Shown one piece after another: positions 7,301 through 60,369 of a stretch of DNA of 64,000 nt. Location of the stretch: positions 21,220,040 through 21,284,039 of the forward strand of contig NC_045145.1 in assembly GCF_008831285.2 (NCBI RefSeq), read 5' to 3'. The notes beneath the pieces were generated by a model. It worked only from the letters and a program-made list of their open reading frames with translations, was not told where the DNA came from and ran no database searches. How positions within the stretch are numbered: the stretch's first letter is position 1; each line of letters starts with the position of its first letter. The translations under genes were made by a program, and so were the position numbers. The stretch is from Nymphaea colorata (taxonomy: Eukaryota; Streptophyta; Magnoliopsida; Nymphaeales; Nymphaeaceae).

Positions 7301-8411
7301 ATCAGGCATGAGCAGCTTCGAATTTGTATCTGAAGTTGAAGAATTTCAAAGGTGGTCTTCTAAGTTTCAACTTTTATGCGTTGGACGTCGATCTTTTCCT
7401 GCTCCGGCAACTCGTTAACTCAAGCTTTTCGTTGGTTGATCATTGCCTGCTCTCTGGCGCTTTTAGGTTTCTCTCCTTCTATCTGTTTCTCTATAATTTC
7501 TTTATAACTTTTGACGCTGCCATACGTACCTTCATCTCCTTCACCCGCTCCGTTGCGCTTGACGTGCCTCCTCCTCCTGTTTTCCTCATGCTTTTCTTTC
7601 AGATCGCCGCATCCTTCCCACCGTTCCTTGTTTGGAATCTGGAAAGAACGCCTCTGATCTTAAAGGCAATATGTCATTTGCTCGTCCATCTATTAATCTC
7701 ATCCAAATATCTTCGACGAGCCTCGTCTTTTTGTCGCTAATGCTCAGGTGGCAATTGTTTTTTTTTTTTATTCACGATAGATGTTTACACACACACATAC
7801 ACAGCCAGGTGTCATACAAATAGTTCGTAAGTTTCGAAAATAGCTAGGCAAAATATATCTGGAGAGATCAACTAGCTAACATATATAGCAGTTACTAACC
7901 ATGGTTCACACCGATACACTTCTAAAGAGGTACAACATGCCTACGTTGAGTAAAGACAGATACTTACAGAGAGAGAGAGAAAAAGAGAGATTACTTTTTC
8001 TTTTTTGTTAATAATACATTAGTGGAATGACATTATTTCTTAATAAGTATGTTTTTTGAACATAATCATCAAATTATGTTTTTTAACATAATCATCAAAT
8101 TACATACGATTATTTCATCAAAAAGGGTTTTAGATATGGTTATGAGACGTTAATATCATAACAATGTATCTTCAGATTATATTCGAGTTATTACGATGCT
8201 TTGTCAGCTTAATCAACACTAATGAATTATTATTTGGAAAAATCATTAAATGCGTGCAAGTGTGGACAAATTTTCATTTACATGAAAATTGAAAAGGTGC
8301 CATATTGTTTTGGATATAGAAATTCAATTTGGTTATCTTTTTTGTTCTTTTTTTTGTTATCATAATCTAGCAAGCGATCCAAGGTCCTTTGAGGTCATAT
8401 ACGGTGGTAGG

Positions 8412-11400
8412 ATGTCGACGTTGGCAAGTTCAGTAGAAGAGGTAATGGAAGTGCTGATTGGGGAGGAAGATAGGTACGATGGGGTGACAGTGAAGATAAA
8501 GGAGCATATGGAGGTTGGGGTGTTTGCCTCCAGACTTAGAGCTTCGATGTCCCGATGGAAACAGCAGGTGACTCTCTTCATCATGATTCCCCTTGATGGT
8601 ATTTTCCACTTTACCTTTGCCGGCTTCTTTAGCTTGATTTTTCATGTTGGTTGGCATTTTAATACCGTCAAATCCATTTTGCCTATGCAACCAACATTAA
8701 TATTCTTTTTCTAAGATTTTCTTTTCAGGCTTTCCTTATTTAAATTTTATAAGTTTTAGCATTGCATGCATGAAATTTGCAAAAACAGTCAAGTACAAAT
8801 GCATGTAGTTTTAGTGTGATACTCACTTTCTTTCTGTTTTTCTGATTTTTCTTATTCAATGTTAAACGTGTATTCGGCACCACATGCATGGAAAGGAAGC
8901 GTTATCGATAGTTAGTTCTTGTGGATTTTCAAATGAATAACTTTTGTTGCGTGGAAAAGGCTGCACATAACTCAAATGAATAACTTTCTTTCTGTTGTTA
9001 GGGAAAGAAAGGAGTTTGGCTCAACATTTCTCTCACATTTGTGGACTTTGTTCCTGTTGCAGTGCAGGTTAACATTACTCCCTTAGCTATACAATCAGGA
9101 ACCTTTACTGCACTCTTTTCTGCACAGGACTGGTTATTCTTTTTTTAATACTTGCAGGAAGGATTTTGGTACCACCATGCGGAGCCAACTCATTTGATGC
9201 TTGTGAATTGGCTCCCCAGCACCCCTCATACTCTGCCAATCTATGCCACACACAGACTTGGAGTTGGTGCTGTTGTCATAAACAATAACAAAGAGGTACA
9301 TGGCTTGTATGAAGCAGTAAAAACCTGTGACTTTCAAGGATTTATTTGTTTATGTCCTCTTATGGAAGTTCAACCTGTTTCTAATATAATGTTGCACATT
9401 TATAATTTAAAATATCTTTTGTGACAAATTATATGATTCAAATTTTTGAATATGACTTTAGGTGCTGGTGGTTCAAGAGAAGTCTGGCCATTTCAGAGGT
9501 TCTGGTGTATGGAAAATTCCTACTGGGGTTGTTGAAGAGGTCATTGTCTTTATAAATGAATTGCTGATATCTTCACTTTGTTTAGCCCCAAGGGGCACAT
9601 CTCAAATGGGCAGGCAGGGACATGTTGCGCAGCATGTTTCCAATTCAACCTTTGGGCGGTGGACAGTGGCGGAGCCACATGGTGGTTGGTGTGGGCAGTT
9701 GGCTGCACCAGCCTCACAAAATTAGTTTAATATATGTGTTAATGTTTTGATATATTTGATTGTTATACATATACCCTGAACAAATTAAAGTTATTGAATG
9801 AGTGCCTCACCAGAAAAAATTTCTGGTTTCGTTAGTGGCGGTGGGGGGTTGGGTTTGCTATGCTCTTGTGCCAAAAAGGAGGGTAGGTCTCTAGTTGAAG
9901 CACATGAACGTGATCTCACCTTTTGGTATTAATCAAGAGGACAAGGAGAAGGGGGATAGGGAGAGGAGCTTGGGCTCTCATTCAAGCAGTGGGATAAGCC
10001 TCCTATTCACCTGAATGTCTTCATTATGTTTCAAGAGTATCAAATAATTGATACTAGTTATGAAAGTGAAACTTTTCTTTGCAGGGTGAGGATGTGTTTG
10101 CTGCAGCTGAAAGAGAAGTGAAGGAGGAAACCGGGGCAAGTTCTTCCATTCTCCTTTCAGCTTTTATACTAATCTGTTGCATTCATTTTAGCTTGTAAGC
10201 CTCAGGTGTTAGTTTCACTTGTACTGACAAAATCTTGCTCTTTTCATTGCATCAGGTTGAAGTAGAATTTGTAGAAATCATTGGGTTCAGGTATGAACTG
10301 TAGGAACATGCACAGTAGGAACATGCACATGCTTGCAACTAAAGCAAGATAACTTGCAAATGCAAGGAAGTATACTAGTCATTTTTCTGAAAAAGGATTG
10401 TCCAATTATCAAACTAACTATTGACAAAAAATCGATGAAACATTAGAGGGAATCTCTAGGATGCTTTGGGCAATTATTGGATGCATGGCTGCATTTTAGC
10501 TGGTTTTTAAGAAACTTCAAAAAATCTAAGAACAAAGAAATCTTTGATTGAGTTGCTGTATACACAGTAATGGTTTCACAGCTCGTGGAGAAGGAAAAGC
10601 AGACTGGTCATAACTCAATCATGTTAGCCATCATGGCATCTTCTTGTAGATTGACATAAAGAAGATTCCTCTGAGATTTGAAAGATTTCTTGACCTGAAA
10701 GTTGATTTGTGCAAATGACACAATGTAGTAGTAAAATGGAAGTGCAATGGGAAATTTGGAATTCCTTTCTGCAACTTCCCTCCATTGATTCAAGATCTTT
10801 TGATCTAAAACCTGCAGGGAAAGTCACAAAGCTCACTTCAACAAGAAATCTGATCTGTTTTTCATATGTATCTTGGAGCCGAAGTCATCGGATATTCTAA
10901 AGCAAGATTCAGAAATTCTGGATGCCCAGGTAAAATTCATCAGTTGTTAGGTATTTCCTAGTCGGACTCTGAAGCTCACTTACTTTCACACACACCGTAT
11001 GGCCTTTCAAGTTCTTTGTTCTTCATTCAAGTCTCCTGGCATATATATTACTCGTTCATGGGAGACAATATTCTCACATGCAAATCTTAAAGCACTTTGC
11101 GGGTGATAGAACAAAACAGGAGGCCTTTGCACTACTTTCAGGATTATCTACATAACCAGTCTTCAAATTTGAGTTTGTCTTCCCTTCTTTTCTTTTGAAT
11201 GAGGATAAATTTCACGTACATATCTTGTTTGACAATGATTTCTAATCCTTGATTTAATGGGAAAAGCTTTTCTAAGTCGTGTGGATCAAAGGACTAATAC
11301 AAGTCGAGAACATGGCCACAGTGGTTAATATTAATACCAACAGTGTTGTAGTTATTTACATTAGAACAGTTTCATCTTATTCCCAATATCTTGTCTCTTC

Positions 11401-22240: not shown

Positions 22241-22988
22241 GCAGGCGAGACCCTCATAATTCACCAGATCTCAACAATTAGCGGTTTCTCTTCATGTCTC
22301 CGCAGAGGTTGAAGAACTTCAAAAGTAGAGTTTCCGTCGGTTGAATTTTCCAAAATATTTCATGGCCATCTCCACAAAAGATCCATCCTTGACGGTTTTG
22401 TAGTCCTTTGGGTTTCTATCTTTCATCAGTTGCATTACTATGTGGTAATTTAACAACGCTAGTACTCTCGAGGGGACGTTTGGGCTAACCAACTGGTGAG
22501 AAACTGGTTGTCATCAACTGGTGAGAAACTGGTTGTCATTTTGATTATTGTGAGTGCTACTCTTATGAATTGCAACTATTGATAGCTCGATACTCTAATT
22601 GAGGGGTGTATCATGGAGCAACATCCACCTTCGACTCCAAGCGGTGAGCTGGTGAAGGAGAATGCTCCATCTACCGCGTCACGTACAAATAGTTCAGCAG
22701 AAAGTAACCATAGTATATACATCGCACAGATCAAGTAGACATAGTTTATAGCTTTATATTTATGTGCACATCCACGGGTAGTATTAAGTTGTTTATCTAA
22801 GTCATCTTAAGATGTAGATTATATATGTTAATGCAATACGATTTTATGACTTGTATAATTATTTCATGAACAATTTACGTGCGGATACGAGTTTTAAGAC
22901 ATTCAGGTCACAACTAGTTGCATTTTTTTTGTTCCCTTTCGCAGTTTGGTGTTTAAGATCCTGTGGGCTGATATCGGGAAGGAAGTCG

Positions 22989-25900
22989 ATGTCGGGGAGT
23001 TCAAGCGAGGAGGTAGCGTGGGAAGTGCTCACTGGGGAGGAAGATGAGTACGATGGGATGACAGTGAAGATAGAGGAGCGTATGGAGGTTGGGGTGTTTG
23101 CCTCCAGACTTAGAGCTTCCATGTCCCTATGGAAACACCAGGTGACTCTCTTCCTCAGTTATTCGCTCATCTTTTTATATTGCGACATGCATCATCGTTT
23201 CCTTCAACGGCATCGATATTTCACTTTTTACAATTAAACGGCTTCAGTTTTTATTGATCTTGTCAGTTAGTGGAATTTTAGTAAGGCTGGTCAAATCCAT
23301 TTCTCTATGCAATTAAAATGCATCTTTTGCTATGGTTTTCAGCATCACAAAATTTTAAAAACCATTCGGCCATAAATGTTGATTCAATTCCTATATATAT
23401 ATATATATATAGACACACAATTATTGTATATATATTTTTTGAAAACAAGAAAATTGTGTTGTAAGTATATATACACTAAATGTGGGACATCATCTTAGTA
23501 TATAAGTGTTTTTAGAACAACAAAATTGTGTTGTAAGAGCATATATTTCAAGAATATAATCGTTAAGAGATACATTTCGTTATAAAATTATAATTTCTAA
23601 GAGATACCAATATACAATGAAAAAAATTACCTTGAAGTATCAATGCGAAAATAAGCATTTTTTTGTGGGTCTGTGTGGGCAATTGCCACACCTGCCGCCA
23701 CTGCTGGGCATTATAAGGATGATATTTTTTCCCAATCCATTTTTCTCAATTAAAAATTGACATATATGTGCCTCCTGACCAAAATTTATGGCTCAACACT
23801 GGACTTGTTGCATTCACATAAATGGCTATACAAAATTCATATATGTGAACAACATAACTTTCGTTTTGTTGTTAGGGCAAGAAAGGAGTTTGGCTCAACA
23901 TTAAGCTCAAGTTTGCTGAGCTTGTTCCCGTTGCAGTGCAGGTTAACAATACTCTCTTAACTACAAAATCAGGAATCTTAATGCATTCTTTTCTGCACAA
24001 GATTGGTGAATATTCTTTTTCCTTTGATAGCAGGAAGGATTTTGGTACCATCATGCAGAACCTACCTATCTGATGCTCGTGAATTGGCTCCTCAGCACCC
24101 CTCATACTCTGCCTATCTACGCCACACACAGACTTGGTGTTGGTGCTGTTGTCATAAACAGCAAAAAAAAGGTACATGGCTTGAAATTTTACAATGTAAA
24201 ATGCTGCCTCTGTACTTCATAAATGTGTAGAAGCTGCTGATCATTGAGCTAAGAAGCAGTACAAATCTGCGGGTTTCAAAGATTCTTTTGTTTTTACTCT
24301 CTTCTGTTTAGTTCAAAGTACTTCAAACTTTTTAATGTTCCACATTCATAGTCTGATCTATCATCTATCATTTGGGTAGTTATATGATTCAAATTTGTGA
24401 ATAAACATAATTTTAGGTGTTGGTGGTGCAAGAAAAGTCTGGTTATTTCAGAGGTACTGGTGTATGGAAGCTTCCTACTGGGGTTGTTGAAGAGGTTCGC
24501 GGCTTTTATAAATGACTTGCCAATATCTTCAATTTGTTCCAAGATCTTAGCACACCAATGATATTAATTATAGAAATTGAATCACTTCTTGGCAGGGTGA
24601 GGATGTGTATAACGCGGCTAAAAGAGAAGTGAAGGAGGAAACCGGGGCAAGTTCTTCTAACTCTTCCCATTGCAGCTTTTATATGTTGCGTCTCATTCAT
24701 TTTCTTTTTAAGCCTCAGGTGTTAGTTTCATTTGTATTGACATAATCCTGCTTTCCTCGTTGCAACAGGTCGAAGTTGAATTCATCGAAATCATTGGGTT
24801 CAGGTATGGACAATGTGGTCGGTGTGGGCCGGCGTCCACACCAGGCCTTCAAAAATCTAGTTGCAGTAAAGCTGGACTTGGTTAGTCCGGTGGCGGAGCT
24901 AGAAATTTTTTGTTGTGGGGCACTATTATAAAAATTCTCATTTTTGAAGGGGCACGACATACATAAAGAAGTAAATAATTATAAAAAATCTATGTAAAAA
25001 TAAATAAAAAAAATTTTGCTGGCGTGAGCAGTCATATGTAGCTCCGCTGCTGGTTCAGTCACATGTCAATGCCAACATCAGACTTAAGTTGGCAACTCAA
25101 AGTGCCCCTTGGCCAAAAAATCCTGTCTCCATCACTGCAATAAACACATGCACATTCATTCAGTTGAAGCAAAGAACAAGAAATAGGAAGAAAAAAAAAG
25201 TGATTTATTAAGAAAAAAGTACTGTCCAATTGTAAGACTCAATATGAACCTCTAAGATGCTAAAAGTCATATGTATACTCCTCGATTGAGTAGCTCTACT
25301 AATAACCTGTGATGGTTTTTTCAGCTGTTTGGATGCCATCATGGCATCTTCCTGTGGAATGAAAAGCAGAAGTTTCCTTTGTGATCACAAATTTTTCTTG
25401 ACTTAAAGTAGATTTTTGCATATAACACGATGTAGTAGTGCATTGAAGTGCTAGGCGATTCTGAATTCCTGCCTACAACTTTCCTCCATTGAATATAGAT
25501 CTTCTGATCTAAAACTTGCAGGGAAAGTCACAAAGCCCACTTCAACAAGATATCCGATCTGTTCTTTATATGTGTTTTGGAGCCGAAGTCGTTGGCTATT
25601 ACAAAGCAGGACTCAGAAATTTTAGATGCCTAGGTAAAATTCATTGGTTGGTTGGTAGCCATTCCCTAGTTTGATTCAGAAGCTTAACTATTCACTTTTC
25701 ACAAACAATGTGTTTCAATTTCATTTTCTTTCTTCTTCGTTTCGAGAAGGCTGCGGTCTTCCTGCTCATTCACCATTTATGGAGACATTCTAATATACAA
25801 ACCTTAAAGTATCTTGCTTGCCGTGGTAGAACAAAACTAGAAGAGTACTTGGCATTAGTGCCAAGATCATCTGTATCGCCAGTCGTCGGATTTGAGTTTC

Positions 25901-49790: not shown

Positions 49791-51060
49791 CGTAACTCAA
49801 CCAGGCCAGTTGCCAAGGAGATCCATGAATTACTTCGTAAAAGGTCTCCACCTTTGTAAACCTAAATACAGGGGAGCCCTACTTGACATGTAAATCCACA
49901 TGCCTTGTCAATGTCATGTCTCTACTAGTCACATCATGTTTTCTCTTTTACAGTCAAAATTTGTCTGAGATAAGTGAATACATCATTTTCTACTGCACGC
50001 TTTTTACGGATTAGTAAAATCTTGAGGTCCCTCCTTAAGTATTGTTTCTTCCTTTGCTGCATTTACCTGCATATGAATTGAACTGCATTTGTCTGGATTT
50101 TTACCTGGATCCAGCTGTTAGATCTGGCTCCTCTTGTTTAGATGCACACTTTTTTATTGAAATCTTGGGACCAAATCAAACAACACATACTTTTTTATTG
50201 AAGTCTTGGGTCCAAATCAAACAACAAAAGCAAAGACATCTCTAAACAACATCAAAGTACTTCAGATCTTTCTATAGCCACTTCTTCGGCTATAAGCGTA
50301 GTTTTTGAAATTCATCAATTCTTATCGATGAACCTGCTTGGACCTCAATGCTTTTGTCAATGGAGGGTTTGATGCATGTGTTTGTTAAGGCAAGCCCACT
50401 GGACAACAACTGGAAGGTGCACATCACATGGTCCTGCATGCCAATTGACCCACTTGTTCTGCTGTTCTATGCACCTGAAACAAAAATGATAACATGCTCA
50501 TGATTGGATTTAGCTCCATGGGGACCATAAAGCTAGCCACAAGGGCTTAAGCGAATCAAATTGGCTTTTTGGGCAGAGGAATTAATGGTGTTCATCGGTT
50601 TCCGAATTTCAAGTTATATTGGTGAATGTGATTTTGGGATTTGTGGACTTGCCCACTCTTAGATGAAAGGAATCAGGGTTCAAAATCCCATAAATCCCAT
50701 CGTTTGGTCAGGATTCTTAGAATTACAGCCAGAGAGATCCACCTTGACATGAAGCCTTTGGTCTGCTGTTTGCCTGGATTGGCGCGAGAAGAAGTGAGGC
50801 CAACTTTTTGATGTCCTCAAATGAAAACGGAAAGCATGCGGAGAGGTGAGAGTCGGGAGGTTCCAGTCTTCATGCCGGTGGCAAGATTTCCATCTTCTGT
50901 AACAAAGGATTACGAATCCCTGGATAAGGTTTTGTCTGTAAATGGAAATCAAGAGGTATGCAGTCACAGATTCGTCTTCAATGCTTTCTTCCAAGTTCTC
51001 GGAAGTCGAATTCCATTCATCGATCTGTTTCTTTTTCCTATGTTCATGAACAATTAAGAT
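49790..51060 (+). repeat. Degenerate partial unit of the 47.5-60.4 kb array
   Basis: About 49,800-50,040 resembles 55,730-55,920 (GATCCATGAATTACTTCG..., GCCTTGTCAATGTCATGTCTC...). About 50,575-51,050 resembles the segment downstream of the small ORFs (AGAGGAATTAATGGTGTTC, GGGATTTGTGGACTTGCCC; compare 51,850-52,300). The small ORF itself is missing between them, so this is an older, broken copy. Confidence 0.6.
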
Positions 51061-51393
51061 TAGTTTTCTTCCTTCAGAGAGCGGCCACTGGTTTTCAGCA
51101 ACGCCCTGTGACCCACTTGAGTGCAGTTCTTTGCACCAAAAACAAAATCACTAACATGCCCAGGGGGGAGAGAACGAAGGCTGATGTAATATTCAAATTG
51201 GCTAGAGGGCCACTTGCCATGGACCTTTCACCATTGATATTTGGTTGCACAACTCCACTTGCCTCACATGGCATCCACCTTTTGGTATTTATTCTTCTTG
51301 ACTGTTCTTGTCAAGGAACGCACACCCACTTGACGAAATTGTCGAAATCAATGCATCGCAATTGGGAAGTCGCCACAATGACCACGATCCTGC

Positions 51394-51402
51394 CTATATA
51401 AA
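51394..51402 (+). promoter_or_regulatory. TATA box of small-ORF gene 1
   Basis: CTATATAAA, 103 bases before the ATG. The flanking GATCCTGCCTATATAAACAG is nearly identical in gene 2 and close in gene 3. About 200 bases upstream are also conserved, including CTTGACTGTT-type and CACTTGACGAAATTG motifs with TTGAC cores. Confidence 0.7.
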
Positions 51403-51496
51403 CAGAAGAAGCTCCAAAATTCATTCCACAACCTTCTCCGGCCACCGCCTCCCTCCTGAACTAGCTGGTACCAGCACCTTGTGCCCTCTTAAAGCA

Positions 51497-51754
51497 ATGG
51501 AAAGCTTAGCCAGCTTTGAGGGACTCTGCCTGGCGGTTCCCCTTGTCTTCTTTCTCTTCTTCCTCTTTATGGCGGTGGAGTTCTCTTGGAACAACCGGAG
51601 CATTGGCCTGCCCCCAGATGCTTGCTTCCCTTCAAGCCAAAAATGGCTTGATAGGCACCAAGTTCATCATCCTCCTGTTGCCAGGGGACTCGGATCCCCA
51701 ATCCCTCCTGACCACGTAATTGGCGGCCAGAAATTCATGTATTCTTTCCAGTGA
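51497..51754 (+). CDS. Small single-membrane-segment protein, tandem family member 1 (85 aa), function unknown
   Basis: A single-exon frame starting at the first ATG after a conserved TATA box. Residues 1-8 are polar, about 9-28 form a strongly hydrophobic segment (LAVPLVFFLFFLF), then follows a hydrophilic tail with FSWNN, GLPPDACFP and QKWLDRHQ motifs, ending in YSFQ. It could be a signal anchor or an uncleaved signal peptide; a single cysteine lies in each half. I recognise no family. Members 2 and 3 (54,561 and 58,982) are similar over the whole length with aligned start and stop. This copy has one extra residue near position 57 (HHPPVARGLGS against HLPVTRVLGS). Conservation of frame and promoter across three copies argues for a real gene, though recent duplication alone could also give this. 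Confidence 0.65.
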   Translation: MESLASFEGLCLAVPLVFFLFFLFMAVEFSWNNRSIGLPPDACFPSSQKWLDRHQVHHPPVARGLGSPIPPDHVIGGQKFMYSFQ

Positions 51755-51849
51755 AGACCCCAAGAACTGTTGACGTCCTCAAGCTGATGGACTTTTCACG
51801 AATCTGACAGTCAAGATAAATCACTCACAGGTTGCGAGACATGTTCTTT

Positions 51850-52330
51850 CGGGCAATGGAATTAATGGCGTCATTTGATCTTTCCAGCAACAGGCTGGTT
51901 ATCGTGATGTTGGGATTTGTGGACTTGCCCTCTTTTAAGATTGAAAAGAAATCAGGATTTAGAATCCCATCATTGCTCACAATTCCTAGCAGTCGAGAAA
52001 GATCACCCTGGGAGGCGACCTTCATCTGCTGTACGTTGTGATTTGCGAGGCCGACTTTCTTGCATCTTCAAATCCCCTGCTTCTGATGACGGTGAAAGTC
52101 ATGCGGAGATGGGATAGTCGGGAGATCCACTCCTCATGTCCTGTGTTTGGCGATGGCGTGATATTTCATCTTCTGCAGAAAGATTACAATTCCACCTGTA
52201 TAAGGTTTCATATTGTGAACGGAAATAAAGAATTATACAGTTTTGCTCACACATCTTCCCTCCCTCAATTCGTCTTGAACAGTTTCTTGAAACTCGGAAT
52301 TCATCAACTTGCTTGCTTTTTCTGCTGATG
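51850..52330 (+). repeat. Segment downstream of small-ORF gene 1, co-duplicated
   Basis: Similar to 54,910-55,385 and 59,335-59,795, and more weakly to 50,575-51,050. An ATG at about the same place opens a frame starting MASFDLS in each, but the frames diverge through indels and end at different points (short here). It is either a decayed gene or 3' non-coding sequence of the small-ORF unit. Confidence 0.6.
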
Positions 52331-52419
52331 TAGAGTGCCTCAATGCATCGGCCTCTGTGAATAGTTAAACCATGGCTGTTCCATATAACAAGCAAGAACC
52401 GATGCGGGCTCCCTTGATT

Positions 52420-53362
52420 CAATGATAAACAAAACTCAGTTATATGAATCAAAACTGTAAAACTCAGTCATATGAATCAAAACTAAACAATCAGATGTTG
52501 AATTCCATTGAAGATGCTGAGTTTTTCTTTTGATGATGAGGAAAACCACGCGGTTTCTTCCTTGACGTTTGATGATAATGGTGTCACACGTTACCATGTC
52601 CATTTCCAAACGTTGCTCAGCTTTGAGACATGACACAAAGTCTTCAATTTGACACGACTGCCAAGCGAGACCCATGAAAAGATCTCCAGCTTTCTAAATC
52701 TTTAAGCCAAGTAAATCCACATGCCTTGTCAACGCTATTAGTCACATCATGTCCTCACTTTTTAGAGACAAAATTCGCCTGACATAAGCGAGCGAATACA
52801 TCAGTTTTTTTACATGACTTGGGTTAGTAAAATCTTTGCCTACTGTGTGAACAGAAGAAGCTCCAGAATTCCACAAACCTTATCCAATACCCTCTTCCTC
52901 CATAGTTAATTGGTGCAGCAGCTTCGTTAAGTAGGCAAAGATTTTACTAACCCAAGTCATGTAAAAAAACTGATGTATTCGCTCGCTTATGACAGGCGAA
53001 TTTTGTCTCTAAAAAGTGAAGACATGATGTGACTAATAGAGACATGGCGTTGACAAGGCATGTGGATTTACTTGGCTTAAAGATTTAGAAAGCTGGAGAT
53101 CTTTTCATGGGTCTCGCTTGGCAATCGTGTCAAATTGAAGACTTTGTGTCATGTCTCAAAGCTGAGCAACGTTTGGAAATGGACATGGTAACGTGTGACA
53201 CCATTATCATCAAACGTCAAGGAAGAAACCGCGTGGTTTTCCTCGTCATCAAAAGAAAAACTCAGCATCTTCAATGGAATTCAACATCTGATTGTTTAGT
53301 TTTGATTCATATGACTGAGTTTTACAGTTTTGATTCATATAACTGAGTTTTGTTTATCATTG
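52420..53362. repeat. Near-perfect inverted repeat, arms 425 and 433 bp, loop 85 bp
   Basis: The left arm 52,420-52,844 is the reverse complement of the right arm 52,930-53,362. By eye I find four substitutions and one 8-base indel (CATGTCTC, present only in the right arm). The outer edge is CAATGATAAAC and the inner edge GTAAAATCTTTGCCTACT. Arm sequence is related to array DNA at 55,510-55,920, and parts of it to 60,040-60,140 and 49,790-50,040. The loop (52,845-52,929) resembles the 5' untranslated region of the small-ORF genes. A mirrored pair of frames starting MGLAWQSCQ is a by-product of the symmetry. If transcribed it would fold into a long hairpin. Confidence 0.92.
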
Positions 53363-54110
53363 ACGAAAGCAGTTTTTGACTCTAAAAGGGATGAGGGAAT
53401 GGAGAGATGATCACTTGGGTGTTGGATCTCCTTCCATTTATCTACTCGAATTTAATCATACAAGAAATAGATGACTACTCTGAAACTTCATGCGGCTTTT
53501 ATTTTTTGAAGTTGGTTTTTTGCATCTGACGTGATCTACCATTTCCGTGATGTACTGCTTATATTGTTTCGCTTGTGGCCTAATATTTAATTGGTTCATT
53601 CATATCTGTACTGGATTTCACTTGTGATTGTATATACATATATATATATATATATATATAACCTCAGAATTGCCTTTCAGTAAGCATTTCGTTTGAGTTT
53701 TGCAGCATTACAGCAAAAATGGCCTCTTTCGACATATTACTAAACGGCTAGTCTCAGTCCTGATATTCCTACATCTGTAGAAAACCCATTCAGCCAAACT
53801 TTTGTAGTAAATTGGGGATTCATACCCGTGAACCAGAATGGGGCTCAAGGTTTTTTTTTTTTTTTATAATATAATGGAAGGTTTCATGCATGTATTTGTT
53901 AATCAAGCCTAGTTGACCACTAGAAGGTGCAGAACATGGGCCAAGTCAGAAATTTGTGACTAAAAAGCACTAGTAATAAATTTTGAATTTTTAAAAGACA
54001 TAAACATGTAAATGAAAAAAGTTACCCTAAAATGTGAACATAAAAATAAACATTTTTTGTGGCTTTCTGTGGGCAAGTGCCCACACCTGCCTCCACCCCT
54101 GGTGCAAAAG
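53363..54110. other. Intergenic, with TA microsatellite and poly-T
   Basis: A TA run at about 53,636-53,660, a T run at about 53,851-53,866, and GTGGGCAAGTGCCCACACCTG at about 54,070 (a word also seen at 23,670 and 35,640 near GGCGGAGCC-type elements). No gene is supported. Confidence 0.5.
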
Positions 54111-54457
54111 CCAGACCATGCCCTGTGACCCACTTGTGGTGCAGCTCTTTGCACCAAAAACTAAAGCACCAACATGCCCAAGGGGGAGAGAACGAAGGCT
54201 GATGTAATATTCAAATTGGCTCAAGGGCCACTTGCCATGGACTGACTCTTCAAGTGCCGCCATCTCCATTGTCCTTTCACCATTGATATTCATGACAATA
54301 AGCCTCTGTTGCACAACTCCACTTGCCTCACATGGCATCCGCCTTTTGGTATTTATTCTTCTTGACTGTTCGCGTCAAGGAAGGCACACCCACTTGACGA
54401 AATTGTCGAAATCAATGCATCGCAGAAGTCTTGCAGCCAGAATGATCATGATCCTGC

Positions 54458-54466
54458 CTATATAAA
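54458..54466 (+). promoter_or_regulatory. TATA box of small-ORF gene 2
   Basis: CTATATAAA, again exactly 103 bases before the ATG, inside the same conserved promoter and leader as gene 1. Confidence 0.7.
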
Positions 54467-54560
54467 CAGAAGAAGCTCCAGAATTAATTCCACAGCCTTC
54501 TCCGGCCATCTCCTCCCTCCAGAACTAGTTGCAACCAGCATCTTCCGCTGTCTTAAAGAA

Positions 54561-54815
54561 ATGGAAAGCTTAGCTAGCTTTGAGGGACTCTGCGTAGCGG
54601 TTCCCCTCGTCTTCGTTCTCCTCTTCCTCTTCATGGCGGTGGAGTTCTCTTGGAACAACCAGAGCATTGGCTTGCCCCCAGATGCTTGCTTCCCTTCAAA
54701 CCAAAAATGGCTCGTCAGGCACCAAGATCATCTTCCTGTTACCAGGGTACTTGGATCCCCAATCCCTCTTGAACACATAATTGGTGGCAAGAAATTGATG
54801 TTTTCCTTCCAGTGA
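54561..54815 (+). CDS. Small single-membrane-segment protein, tandem family member 2 (84 aa), function unknown
   Basis: Same layout as member 1: hydrophobic segment at about residues 9-28 (VAVPLVFVLLFLF), then FSWNN, SIGLPPDACFPSNQKW and a tail ending in FSFQ. Start and stop align with members 1 and 3. Substitutions in the hydrophobic segment are conservative. The region upstream (about 54,120-54,460) is a close copy of that of member 1. No known family is recognised. Confidence 0.65.
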   Translation: MESLASFEGLCVAVPLVFVLLFLFMAVEFSWNNQSIGLPPDACFPSNQKWLVRHQDHLPVTRVLGSPIPLEHIIGGKKLMFSFQ

Positions 54816-54909
54816 AGCGCCCCACCTCAAGTTGATGGACTTCTGACATTCAGGATCGACGCCTGTTATTGTAAATCACATGTCAGTTGGAAAAATTTCT
54901 CTTTGGCAG

Positions 54910-55920
54910 AGGAATTAATGGCGTCATTCAATCTTTCTTGCAATACTCTGGTTACCTTGGTGAACGCGATGATGGGATTTGTGGACTTGCCCTCTTTTAA
55001 GATGATAAGGAATCAGGATTTAGAGTCCCATCATTTGCTCACAATTCCTAAAAGTCGAGAAAGATCGTTTTCTGAGGACCTTCATCTGCTGTATGTCAGG
55101 ATTCGCGAGGCCAACTTTCTGCATCTTCAAATCCCCTGCTTCTGATGAAAATGGAAGTCAAGCGGACATGTGATAGAGTCGGGAGTCCACTCCTGATGTC
55201 CCGTGTTTGCCGATGGCGAGATATTTCATCTTCTGCAGAAAGATTACAAACCAGCAAATCCCCCTGTACGAATGTTTTATATTGTGAAGGGAAATAAAGA
55301 ATTATACAGTTTTGCTCGCACATCTTCACTCCCTCAATTCCTCTTCAGCTCTTTCTCGAGACTCGGAATTCATGAACTTGTTTTCTTTTTTCTGCAGACA
55401 AACATAAATTACTGTCGAGTGCCTCGATGCTTCTGCTTCTGTAAAGAGTTAAACATGGCTGTCCACATAACGAGCAAGAGCCGATGTGGGCTCCCTTGAG
55501 TTCAAAGAAGAATAAAATTCTGTTACATGAATCAAAACTAAAGCAAACAAATGTTGAATTCCATTGAAGATGCTGAGTTTTTCTTTTGATGATGAGGAGA
55601 AGAACCACGCGGTTTCTTTCTTGACGTTCGATGATAATGTAGCTTCACTTTACCATGTCCTTTTCCAAATATTCCGCAGCTTTGAGAGATGAACCCAAAG
55701 TCTTCAACTTGACACGATCACCAAGCGAGAGCCATGAATTGCTTCCGAAAAGATCTCCAGCTTTCTAAGTTCAAATCCACATGGCTTGTCAAGGCCATGT
55801 CTCTGGTAGTCACATCATCATATTCATGCTTTCTCTTTTAAAGACAAAATTCGTCTGACATAAGCGAATACATCATTTTTGACTTCACGTTTTTGCATGA
55901 TTTGGATTAGTGAAATCTTT
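54910..55920 (+). repeat. Segment downstream of small-ORF gene 2, co-duplicated
   Basis: The first half (to about 55,385) matches 51,850-52,330 and holds a frame starting MASFNLS that ends after about 76 residues. The second half (about 55,510-55,920) is the closest direct-orientation relative of the inverted-repeat arms (AAATGTTGAATTCCATTGAAG...). No recognised protein. Confidence 0.6.
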
Positions 55921-56224
55921 GGGTTCCTTCTTCCTCAATTATTATTCTTTCTTTCCTGCGTTTACCGGCATTCGGGATCAACCGCACCTATCTGGATTGG
56001 ACCTGGATCCGGCTGCTAGATCTGGATCATTTTGTTTAGATGCTTACTTTTGAATGAAATTTTGGGTACAAATTAAAAAAAATAAACAGAAACCAAAGAC
56101 AATCTCTAAGCAACATCAAAGAACCTAAGATCTTTTGTACAGCCACCACATCGGCTATAAGCAAAGGTTTCGACATCATATATTTTAGAAAAATTTTTTG
56201 TCTTATATAAAAAATTTAATTAAA

Positions 56225-58711: not shown

Positions 58712-58872
58712 CTTCTTTCTCGTGGCTTTTGACACGATGCTTAAGAGAACAATGTGAATCTTGAAAAAAAACGAGACGACCGACTTCACGAAATTGTGAA
58801 GCTCACTAGATGGCAAGCAATTGGGAAGTCCATATCCACGATTCTTGAGGTCGGAATGATCGTCATCCTTGC

Positions 58873-58881
58873 CTATATAAA
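58873..58881 (+). promoter_or_regulatory. TATA box of small-ORF gene 3
   Basis: CTATATAAA, 109 bases before the ATG, in the same context as genes 1 and 2. Upstream homology is less continuous: a poly-T tract (58,679-58,709) and other sequence interrupt it. Confidence 0.65.
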
Positions 58882-58981
58882 CAGCAGAAGCTCCGGAATT
58901 AATCCCACAGCCTTCTCCGGCCATCGCCTCCACCCACTACTAATTGCAACCACCAGCACCTTCTGCCTTCTTGTCTTACAA

Positions 58982-59236
58982 ATGGAAAGCTTAGCTAGCT
59001 TTGAGGGACTCTGCCTAGCGGTTCCCCTCGTCTTCTTTCTCCTCTTCCTCTTCATGGCCATGGAGTTCTCTTGGAACAACCAGAGCATTGGCTTGCCCCC
59101 AGATGCTTGCTTCCCCTCAAACCAAAAATGGCTCGGTCGGCACCAAGATCATCTTCCTGTTACCAGGGTACTCGGTTCCCCAATCCCTCTTGACCACATA
59201 ATTGGTGGTCAGAAATTGATGTATTCTTTCCAGTGA
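58982..59236 (+). CDS. Small single-membrane-segment protein, tandem family member 3 (84 aa), function unknown
   Basis: Same layout as members 1 and 2: hydrophobic segment LAVPLVFFLLFLF, then FSWNN, SIGLPPDACFPSNQKW, GRHQDHLPVTRVLGS and a YSFQ end. The frame is open upstream of this ATG (to about 58,754), but the conserved TATA box and the match to the other members support starting here. No family is recognised. With three intact copies in about 7.7 kb, this is a young tandem family. Confidence 0.65.
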   Translation: MESLASFEGLCLAVPLVFFLLFLFMAMEFSWNNQSIGLPPDACFPSNQKWLGRHQDHLPVTRVLGSPIPLDHIIGGQKLMYSFQ

Positions 59237-59342
59237 AGCACCCCAAGAAGTTGATGGACTTCGTCGAATGTGGCATTCAAGATCGACACCTGCTATTGTA
59301 AATCAGACGGGTTGGAAGAATTTCTTTTTGGCAAAGCAATCA

Positions 59343-59702
59343 ATGGCGTCATTCGATCTTTCCTGCAACAGTCTGGTTATCTTGGTGAATGTGATGTTGG
59401 CGTTTGTGGAATTGCCTTCTCGTAAGATGAAATGGAATCAGGATTTAGAATCCCACCATTTGCTCACAATTTCTAGAAGTCGAGAAAGATCACCCTGTGC
59501 TGAAGACCTTCATCTTCTGTATGTCGGGATTCGCGAGGCTAACTTTTCTGTACCTTCAAATCCCCTTCTTCTGATGAAAATGGAAGTCCTGCGGAGATGT
59601 GAAGGAGTCGGCGGGAATCCCCTCCATAGCGAGATCTTTCATCTTCTGGAGAAAGATTATAAACCCCCCTGTATAAGTCTTTGTATTGTGAAAGGAAATT
59701 AA
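59343..59702 (+). CDS. Candidate ORF (119 aa) downstream of small-ORF gene 3
   Basis: The longest version of the co-duplicated downstream frame: starts MASFDLSCN, has ESHHLLTISRSRERS and EDLHLLYVGIREANF, ends CIVKGN. Copies downstream of genes 1 and 2 share the start but are cut short by indels. Either this copy preserves a gene lost elsewhere, or it is a chance open frame in a duplicated 3' region. No domain is recognised and no splice context is evident. Confidence 0.3.
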   Translation: MASFDLSCNSLVILVNVMLAFVELPSRKMKWNQDLESHHLLTISRSRERSPCAEDLHLLYVGIREANFSVPSNPLLLMKMEVLRRCEGVGGNPLHSEIFHLLEKDYKPPCISLCIVKGN

Positions 59703-60087
59703 AGAATTATACAGTTTTGTTCACACATCTTTCCTCCTTCAATTCATCTTCAAGTGTTTCTTGAAACTCGGAATTCATTAATTTCTTTGTTTTTTCTGCT
59801 GATGAACATAGATTGCTTTACATCACTCAACAGTAACTATAAATAAGATGAAACTCTTCTTTTGATTTATTACACCAATAAACGGCACATGGGTCGCCCG
59901 TATAAATGGTCGGAAAAGCCTGTCCCAGTGCCTCGTTCCAAGGCCTACAGATGTTTCGGCCTCTGTGAAGAGTTGAACCATGGTTGTCCATGTAACGAGC
60001 AAGAACCGACGCGGGCTCCCTTGATTCAGAGATAAACTCTGATATATGAATCAAAACTGAGCAATCAGATGTTGAATTCCATCGAAG

Positions 60088-60369
60088 ATGCTGTGTTTTT
60101 CTTTTGACGATGAGGAAAACCACGTGGTTTCCTTCACGTTTGTGATTAAACACACTACCGGAATATTGACTCTCGACGTAACACGCTTGGGTGCCCTTCA
60201 CTTTTTTGTCGATGAAACTTCAGATACTCAAACAAACAACGCCATGAGAAAGCTCGCGCAGCATTGGGACATGAGCCAAAGTTTCAACTTACACGATTCA
60301 CAGAACCACACCTCCCTCTTACTGCCTGATCACGCAGGTAGATGCATCTTACAGGTCAATCGGCAATAG
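60088..60369 (+). CDS. Candidate ORF (93 aa), low support
   Basis: Frame starting MLCFSFDDEENHVV, in sequence related to 55,570-55,730 and to the inverted-repeat arms. The related copies open with the same MLSFSFDDEE-type start but terminate after 40 or so residues. This copy carries extra sequence after position 60,140. No domain is recognised. A minus-strand frame of 124 codons (59,827-60,201) overlaps it, so coding strand and coding status are both uncertain. Confidence 0.2.
   Translation: MLCFSFDDEENHVVSFTFVIKHTTGILTLDVTRLGALHFFVDETSDTQTNNAMRKLAQHWDMSQSFNLHDSQNHTSLLLPDHAGRCILQVNRQ

Follow-up and report, generated by a model that had tools for sequence, protein, structure and literature searches.

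How a long and nearly perfect inverted repeat came to lie within a tandem array of small-peptide genes, and what it might do there, is the question raised by this locus in a 64,000-nucleotide stretch of DNA (the window). Most accounts of how small-RNA loci arise are pieced together when many of the traces have already been lost. At this locus ~13 kb hold the original arm, its inverted copy, three related arm sequences and the source of the loop; together they make the order of events largely readable and the record of the birth unusually clear. We consider it fairly probable that the repeat is a recent inverted duplication, formed within the tandem gene array and not by a transposon, which would give rise to hairpin siRNAs if transcribed.

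The left arm (52419-52844, + strand) is 426 nt long and the right arm (52930-53363, − strand) 434 nt, with a loop of 85 nt between them (52845-52929). The arms differ by 4 substitutions in 426 aligned columns, at left-arm positions 52537, 52658, 52754 and 52782, and by a single 8-base gap, the bases being missing from the left arm after 52734. A preliminary description of this DNA had reported arms of 425 and 433 bp, four substitutions, one 8-base indel and an 85-bp loop; alignment recovers all of these, with each arm 1 base longer at its outer end. The longest exact inverted word with copies no more than 3 kb apart in the window measures 120 nt (52538/53244); in all 12 first-order Markov simulations it stayed at 13-15 nt. 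When the whole window was compared with itself by BLAST with the low-complexity filter on, four inverted pairs emerged at E ≤ 1e-8, which join the arms to each other and to their own paralogues, while a looser scan of 47-61 kb gave 22 inverted pairs, including short AT-rich ones unrelated to the arms. The predicted RNA fold of 52419-53363 has an energy of −770.4 kcal/mol, compared with −217.2 ± 7.7 for shuffled sequences (n = 20). Perfect duplex runs of 118, 120, 76, 19, 27 and 62 bp occur along the arms, and 303 21-mers lie wholly inside perfect duplex. By this model, an RNA crossing the inverted repeat would fold into ~420 bp of near-perfect dsRNA. The arms, the fold and the 303 21-mers thus present the long near-perfect inverted repeat for dsRNA that a natural hairpin-siRNA locus requires as one of its features.

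The surrounding array consists of tandem units. In self-comparison, units 1 (51103-52838) and 2 (54120-55921) align collinearly at 78%, and unit 3 (58843-59817) aligns in the same way with each of them at 80-83%, with an extra piece at 59950-60146 (76-82%). Relics of older units occupy 47.5-51.1 kb and a region near 57.7-58.1 kb. Units 1 to 3 each carry a small-peptide gene, listed here with putative ends:

51394-52250, + strand: small-peptide gene 1 (unit 1), with a TATA box at 51394, an ORF at 51497-51754 (85 aa) and a poly(A)-like AATAAA at 52224

54458-55320, + strand: small-peptide gene 2 (unit 2), with a TATA box at 54458, an ORF at 54561-54815 and a poly(A)-like AATAAA at 55293

58873-59720, + strand: small-peptide gene 3 (unit 3), with a TATA box at 58873, an ORF at 58982-59236 and a poly(A)-like ATTAAA at 59698

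The three TATA positions are those of a CTATATAA box present in each unit. The ORFs, of 84-85 codons, all start with MESLASFEGL followed by C, and the poly(A)-like element of the three units sits within a longer conserved stretch. Among the three in-window genes dN/dS is 0.22-0.41. A DNA search of the assembly with unit 2 as query, from which the relatives of the peptide gene are known, revealed a fourth, more diverged copy just past the end of the window (L015:1210-1455); it has its own CTATATAA box and a dN/dS of 0.40-0.48 against the other three. The conservation of TATA box, poly(A)-like element and ORF, together with these dN/dS values, indicates that the three ORFs and the fourth copy are probably real small-protein genes. 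Their 84-85 aa products are hydrophobic in the N-terminal half; comparison with Pfam gave matches only below the curated cut-offs, and comparison with PDB no convincing relative, the one match having E 0.46.

The inverted repeat lies downstream of gene 1, and its end is 1.2 kb upstream of the ATG of gene 2. Homology among units 1, 2 and 3 continues uninterrupted across the left boundary at 52419, which identifies the left arm as the original downstream flank of unit 1, standing, as judged by this collinearity, in the ancestral position and orientation of an array unit; the inverted right arm is the newer copy. The loop and the relatives of the arms are as follows:

52845-52929, + strand: loop, a diverged core-promoter/5'UTR fragment of a peptide gene, matching 51401-51480 and 54465-54545 at 71-72%

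55513-55921, + strand: arm homologue downstream of gene 2, 76-78% identical by BLAST, without an adjacent inverted partner

60034-60146, + strand: arm homologue fragment downstream of gene 3, 87-88% identical over 117 columns

49887-50320, + strand: older arm homologue, a relic of unit 0, of which 49887-50023 is 73-78% identical to the arms

The left arm is 82.5% identical to the unit 2 homologue over 383 ungapped columns; the right arm is 98-99% identical to the left arm and 78% to unit 2. The unit 0 relic is also collinear with unit 2 past the end of the arm (49892-50320 with 55773-56184). In the 407.8-Mb, 783-contig assembly, a search that by its method skips very common words, and in which 4 of 4 first-look candidates were scored, found arm homology in four places including the repeat itself, all of them in this array. 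The kinship of the arms to DNA near gene 2 and to the rest of the array, claimed in the preliminary description, is borne out by the matches at 55513-55921, 60034-60146 and 49887-50023, and its further claim of a young repeat built of array sequence is supported by the unit collinearity and by the polarised differences described below. Where unit 3 passes out of the arm homology, it enters an open frame of 97 codons that has no match in Pfam (60076-60369) and either belongs to another gene or is open by chance. Between units 1 and 2, the spacer contains a dispersed repeat of ~170 bp (53935-54110), ~570 bp from the inverted repeat, which is matched on C1 to C14 of the assembly; used as a query, this spacer gave 665 first-look candidates, of which 40 were scored, compared with four for the arms.

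All five differences between the arms can be polarised with the help of paralogues. On the left arm, the derived states are the substitutions at 52658 and 52754 and the 8-base deletion after 52734, with polarisation weaker at 52658, where it leans on unit 2 alone, and at 52754, where the alignment is gappy. The right arm carries derived bases at 53245 and 52992 and retains the 8 bases lost from the left. Derived changes thus fall in both arms, two in each plus the left deletion, a distribution arguing for a young but genuine duplication. The loop adds a second component to this history. Its bases 52850-52924 match 51401-51480 in gene 1 at 72% with 41.1 bits and the corresponding segment of gene 2 (54465-54545) with 39.7 bits, compared with a maximum of 28.3 bits for 60 mononucleotide shuffles of the loop against the whole window; gene 3 is matched more weakly, at 58880-58918 (E 0.004). 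Bases 52843-52850, which align with the CTATATAA box of the genes, read CTGTGTGA. This homology, newly recognised here, makes the loop a relic of a promoter/5'UTR stretch from the same gene family.

The inner ends of the arms bear on how the two components met. Unit 1 ceases to be collinear with units 2 and 0 when the arm has only a few bases left to run inward. Those last bases, which both arms share, look to the eye like the beginning of the gene fragment, and this points to fusion of flank and relic as the first step and inverted duplication as the second. The downstream flank of unit 1 would have been fused beforehand to the promoter/5'UTR relic, and a template switch during replication or repair would then have recopied the flank in inverse orientation. 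Microhomology beyond 1-2 bases is not evident by eye at either junction, so that the template switch can only be inferred.

The same boundaries bear on two other origins. A transposon with long terminal inverted repeats (a MITE, foldback element or TIR-MULE) would share the overall shape of the locus, with its long arms and short interior. At the left boundary, however, collinearity with units 2 and 3 runs on without a break, where an element would have the first of two insertion junctions. No convincing target-site duplication flanks the repeat: within 6 bases of slop at the ends, only one exact 4-mer was found among matches of at least 4 bases, and it overlaps the arm end. Nor were dispersed copies of the arms found in the 407.8-Mb assembly. 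With target-site duplication, paired insertion junctions and dispersed copies all missing, a MITE or TIR transposon is rejected, and we regard any such origin as extremely improbable. An assembly artefact, in which two haplotypes were joined inversely or a palindromic chimera was formed, would equally account for a difference of ~1% and a small indel, as expected between two haplotypes. Against it, the left flank is not repeated in reverse complement to the right of 53363, and an artefact would need two breakpoints because the outer flanks differ. In addition, the loop is a gene relic, the window contains no N, and no match to the arms is listed on another contig (4 of 4 candidates scored). 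We consider this explanation very unlikely.

Divergence between the arms is 4 changes in 426 sites (Poisson 95% interval 1.1-10.2 changes), compared with 17.5% between the left arm and unit 2. Substitution rates of 7e-9, 2.5e-9 and 1.5e-8 per site per year place the duplication at ~0.7, ~1.9 and ~0.3 My, respectively (4/430 sites), and gene conversion between the arms could make this apparent age too young. Two marks that silencing might leave in the DNA are not seen. None of the 4 inferred arm changes is C-to-T or G-to-A, four being too few to decide, and the arm CpG observed/expected ratio of 0.75-0.81 is above the window's 0.59, not below it as methylation decay would have it.

The left arm starts 665 bp past the gene 1 stop codon and 195 bp past the conserved poly(A)-like signal, with the probable gene 1 end at ~52250, upstream of the inverted repeat. 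The element at 52224 should stop most gene 1 transcripts before they reach the repeat. AATAAA is frequent in 51-61 kb, with 14 on the + strand, and the transcript ends placed here are only probable because of it. Under the proposed mechanism, gene 1 read-through or another transcript would cross the inverted repeat, the RNA would fold into ~420 bp of dsRNA, and Dicer-like enzymes would cut it into 21-24-nt siRNAs.

The repeat may instead be an inert rearrangement scar, a young inverted duplication that is untranscribed and without effect. This reading is possible, if less than probable, and it shares its account of origin with the siRNA-producing duplication, so that the two likelihoods are not strictly exclusive. 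Consistent with inertness, the inverted repeat lies beyond the conserved poly(A)-like signal, the TATA-like stretch of the loop is altered, and the arms lack coding constraint in an array that holds several other relics. A coding identity for the arms is in fact rejected: the tested frames of arm, unit 2 and unit 3 gave no Pfam match, differences between arm and unit 2 fall evenly enough by coordinate modulo 3 (26, 19 and 22) that codon-position bias is absent, gaps mostly break the frame (2 of 10 lengths are multiples of 3), and unit 2, whose longest open stretch has 59 codons, does not retain the 85-codon one that is the longest of the arms. Dicer readily accepts long near-perfect dsRNA as a substrate, also at low transcription, which counts against inertness even at a locus that is little transcribed. 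So does the report that most gene-proximal inverted repeats of Arabidopsis Col-0 yield siRNAs (PMC12595863).

According to that source, 634 of 885 Col-0 inverted repeats are no more than 3 kb from a gene, and ~486 of these 634 (~77%) make 24-nt siRNAs; ~68% of those Arabidopsis repeats are ascribed to transposable elements (PMC12595863), so the base rate may not carry over to this locus. In Cvi-0, read-through at the VIM4-VIM2 inverted repeat is reported to give siRNAs acting in cis and in trans (PMC13213937), and 28 hairpin loci have been identified in maize pollen by their 22-nt siRNAs (PMC11390486). On the strength of the Arabidopsis base rate, VIM4-VIM2 and the maize pollen hairpins, production of siRNAs from the arms is plausible, with a chance somewhat above even. 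The reading of a recent, non-transposon inverted duplication with hairpin siRNAs if transcribed therefore draws on several lines: unit collinearity, polarised differences, loop homology, restriction of arm homology to the array, the fold and the 303 duplex 21-mers, along with the Arabidopsis base rate, the VIM4-VIM2 precedent and the lack of any arm 21-mer within 3 mismatches of the predicted transcripts. Counted against it are the poly(A)-like element at 52224, the frequency of AATAAA, the lack of a deamination mark and a base rate heavy in transposable elements.

What such siRNAs would match is the next question. The target flanks start 220 bp (gene 2) and 336 bp (gene 3) past the poly(A)-like signals. 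In an exact search of the window outside the hairpin (52400-53370), 30 of 406 left-arm 21-mers occur in unit 2, 1 in unit 3 and 2 in unit 0; the counts for the right arm are 24 of 414, 1 and 2. With transcript ends placed from AATAAA or ATTAAA, the former common here, none of the 406 left or 414 right 21-mers matches either strand of the transcripts predicted for genes 1-3 with up to 3 mismatches, and the nearest, in gene 2, has 4. Arm matches fall outside the predicted transcripts and past the poly(A)-like signals, and for this reason DNA methylation of gene-end chromatin is more likely than mRNA cleavage. Any siRNAs would act mainly in cis and would at most methylate the paralogous flanks at 55.5 and 60.0 kb; the mRNAs of the peptide genes, predicted to contain no arm sequence, would not be the main target. 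In a stronger version of this proposal, an siRNA locus at most ~1 My old would use a dead relic as its spacer, and its flank siRNAs would jointly tune the array through gene-end chromatin, not mRNA cleavage; this we consider unlikely.

A gene-silencing hairpin of the SULF/YUP type would act differently, its arm siRNAs silencing the peptide-gene paralogues through their mRNAs. The 30 exact 21-mers in unit 2, with more in units 2, 3 and 0 at 1-2 mismatches, are in its favour, as are the precedents of SULF and YUP (PMC12371187) and of VIM4-VIM2 (PMC13213937). An AATAAA at 55511, right at the unit 2 arm homologue, allows a longer gene 2 transcript, which could enter the homologue by some tens of bases. 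The matches with up to 3 mismatches nevertheless fall outside the predicted transcripts, and the fourth gene copy has neither arm-like sequence nor an inverted repeat in the 9 kb read. Silencing through the mRNAs is thus quite improbable.

These results bear on the function that the preliminary description had assigned. Its observation is confirmed and its interpretation partly upheld. What it called gene-family sequence is the array's own DNA, as it said, although the arms derive from downstream flank and not from coding sequence or predicted UTR. The siRNAs that it expected to match paralogues would find exact 21-mers in the flanks of units 2, 3 and 0 and none, within 3 mismatches, in predicted transcripts, which weakens its view of the targets. 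Its suggestion of a route to a new MIRNA gene is likewise weakened: the foldback is 945 nt long, well over ~300 nt, the arms lie outside the predicted mRNA, and Rfam at gathering score gave no family match anywhere in the window. Precise miRNA/miRNA* excision is a further criterion for a plant MIRNA gene. The MIRNA reading is unsupported here, although a plant precursor above 300 nt is a warning, not a failure, in a current validation tool as described in PMC12594335.

A comparison with known systems places the locus. The inverted repeats found near Arabidopsis genes (Arce et al. 2023, as presented in PMC12595863) are likewise long and within 1-2 kb of genes, and the 24-nt siRNAs and local methylation associated with them would be expected here too; they differ in being ~68% derived from transposable elements, whereas the present repeat combines array flank with a gene-relic loop. 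VIM4-VIM2 and PAI4-PAI1 of Cvi-0, as described in PMC13213937, share the inverted arrangement in a gene family with paralogues elsewhere and make hairpin RNA, by read-through in the case of VIM4-VIM2. Their arms, in contrast, are gene sequence, while here they consist of flanking DNA downstream of the predicted mRNA. SULF of Antirrhinum and YUP of Mimulus are also taxon-specific loci formed by incomplete or inverted duplication, yet in the account of PMC12371187 they have a protein-coding origin and the named targets Am4'CGT and RCP2, and no such target is seen here. In the MIRNA inverted-duplication model of Allen and colleagues (PMC3237417), the locus could stand at the very first stage, with near-perfect arms and extended similarity to the source; it departs from that model in its 945-nt foldback, in matching no known miRNA family and in arms that do not come from the predicted mRNA. 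By analogy, if functional, the locus would work like the gene-proximal and VIM/PAI inverted repeats, a kind already known. It offers a testable contrast to the SULF/YUP type, in that its hairpin arms match gene flanks and not messages.

Elsewhere in the window, open frames at 8286-8711 and 22818-23234 match the Nudix hydrolase domain PF18290 above cut-off, which suggests a Nudix gene cluster in its left part.
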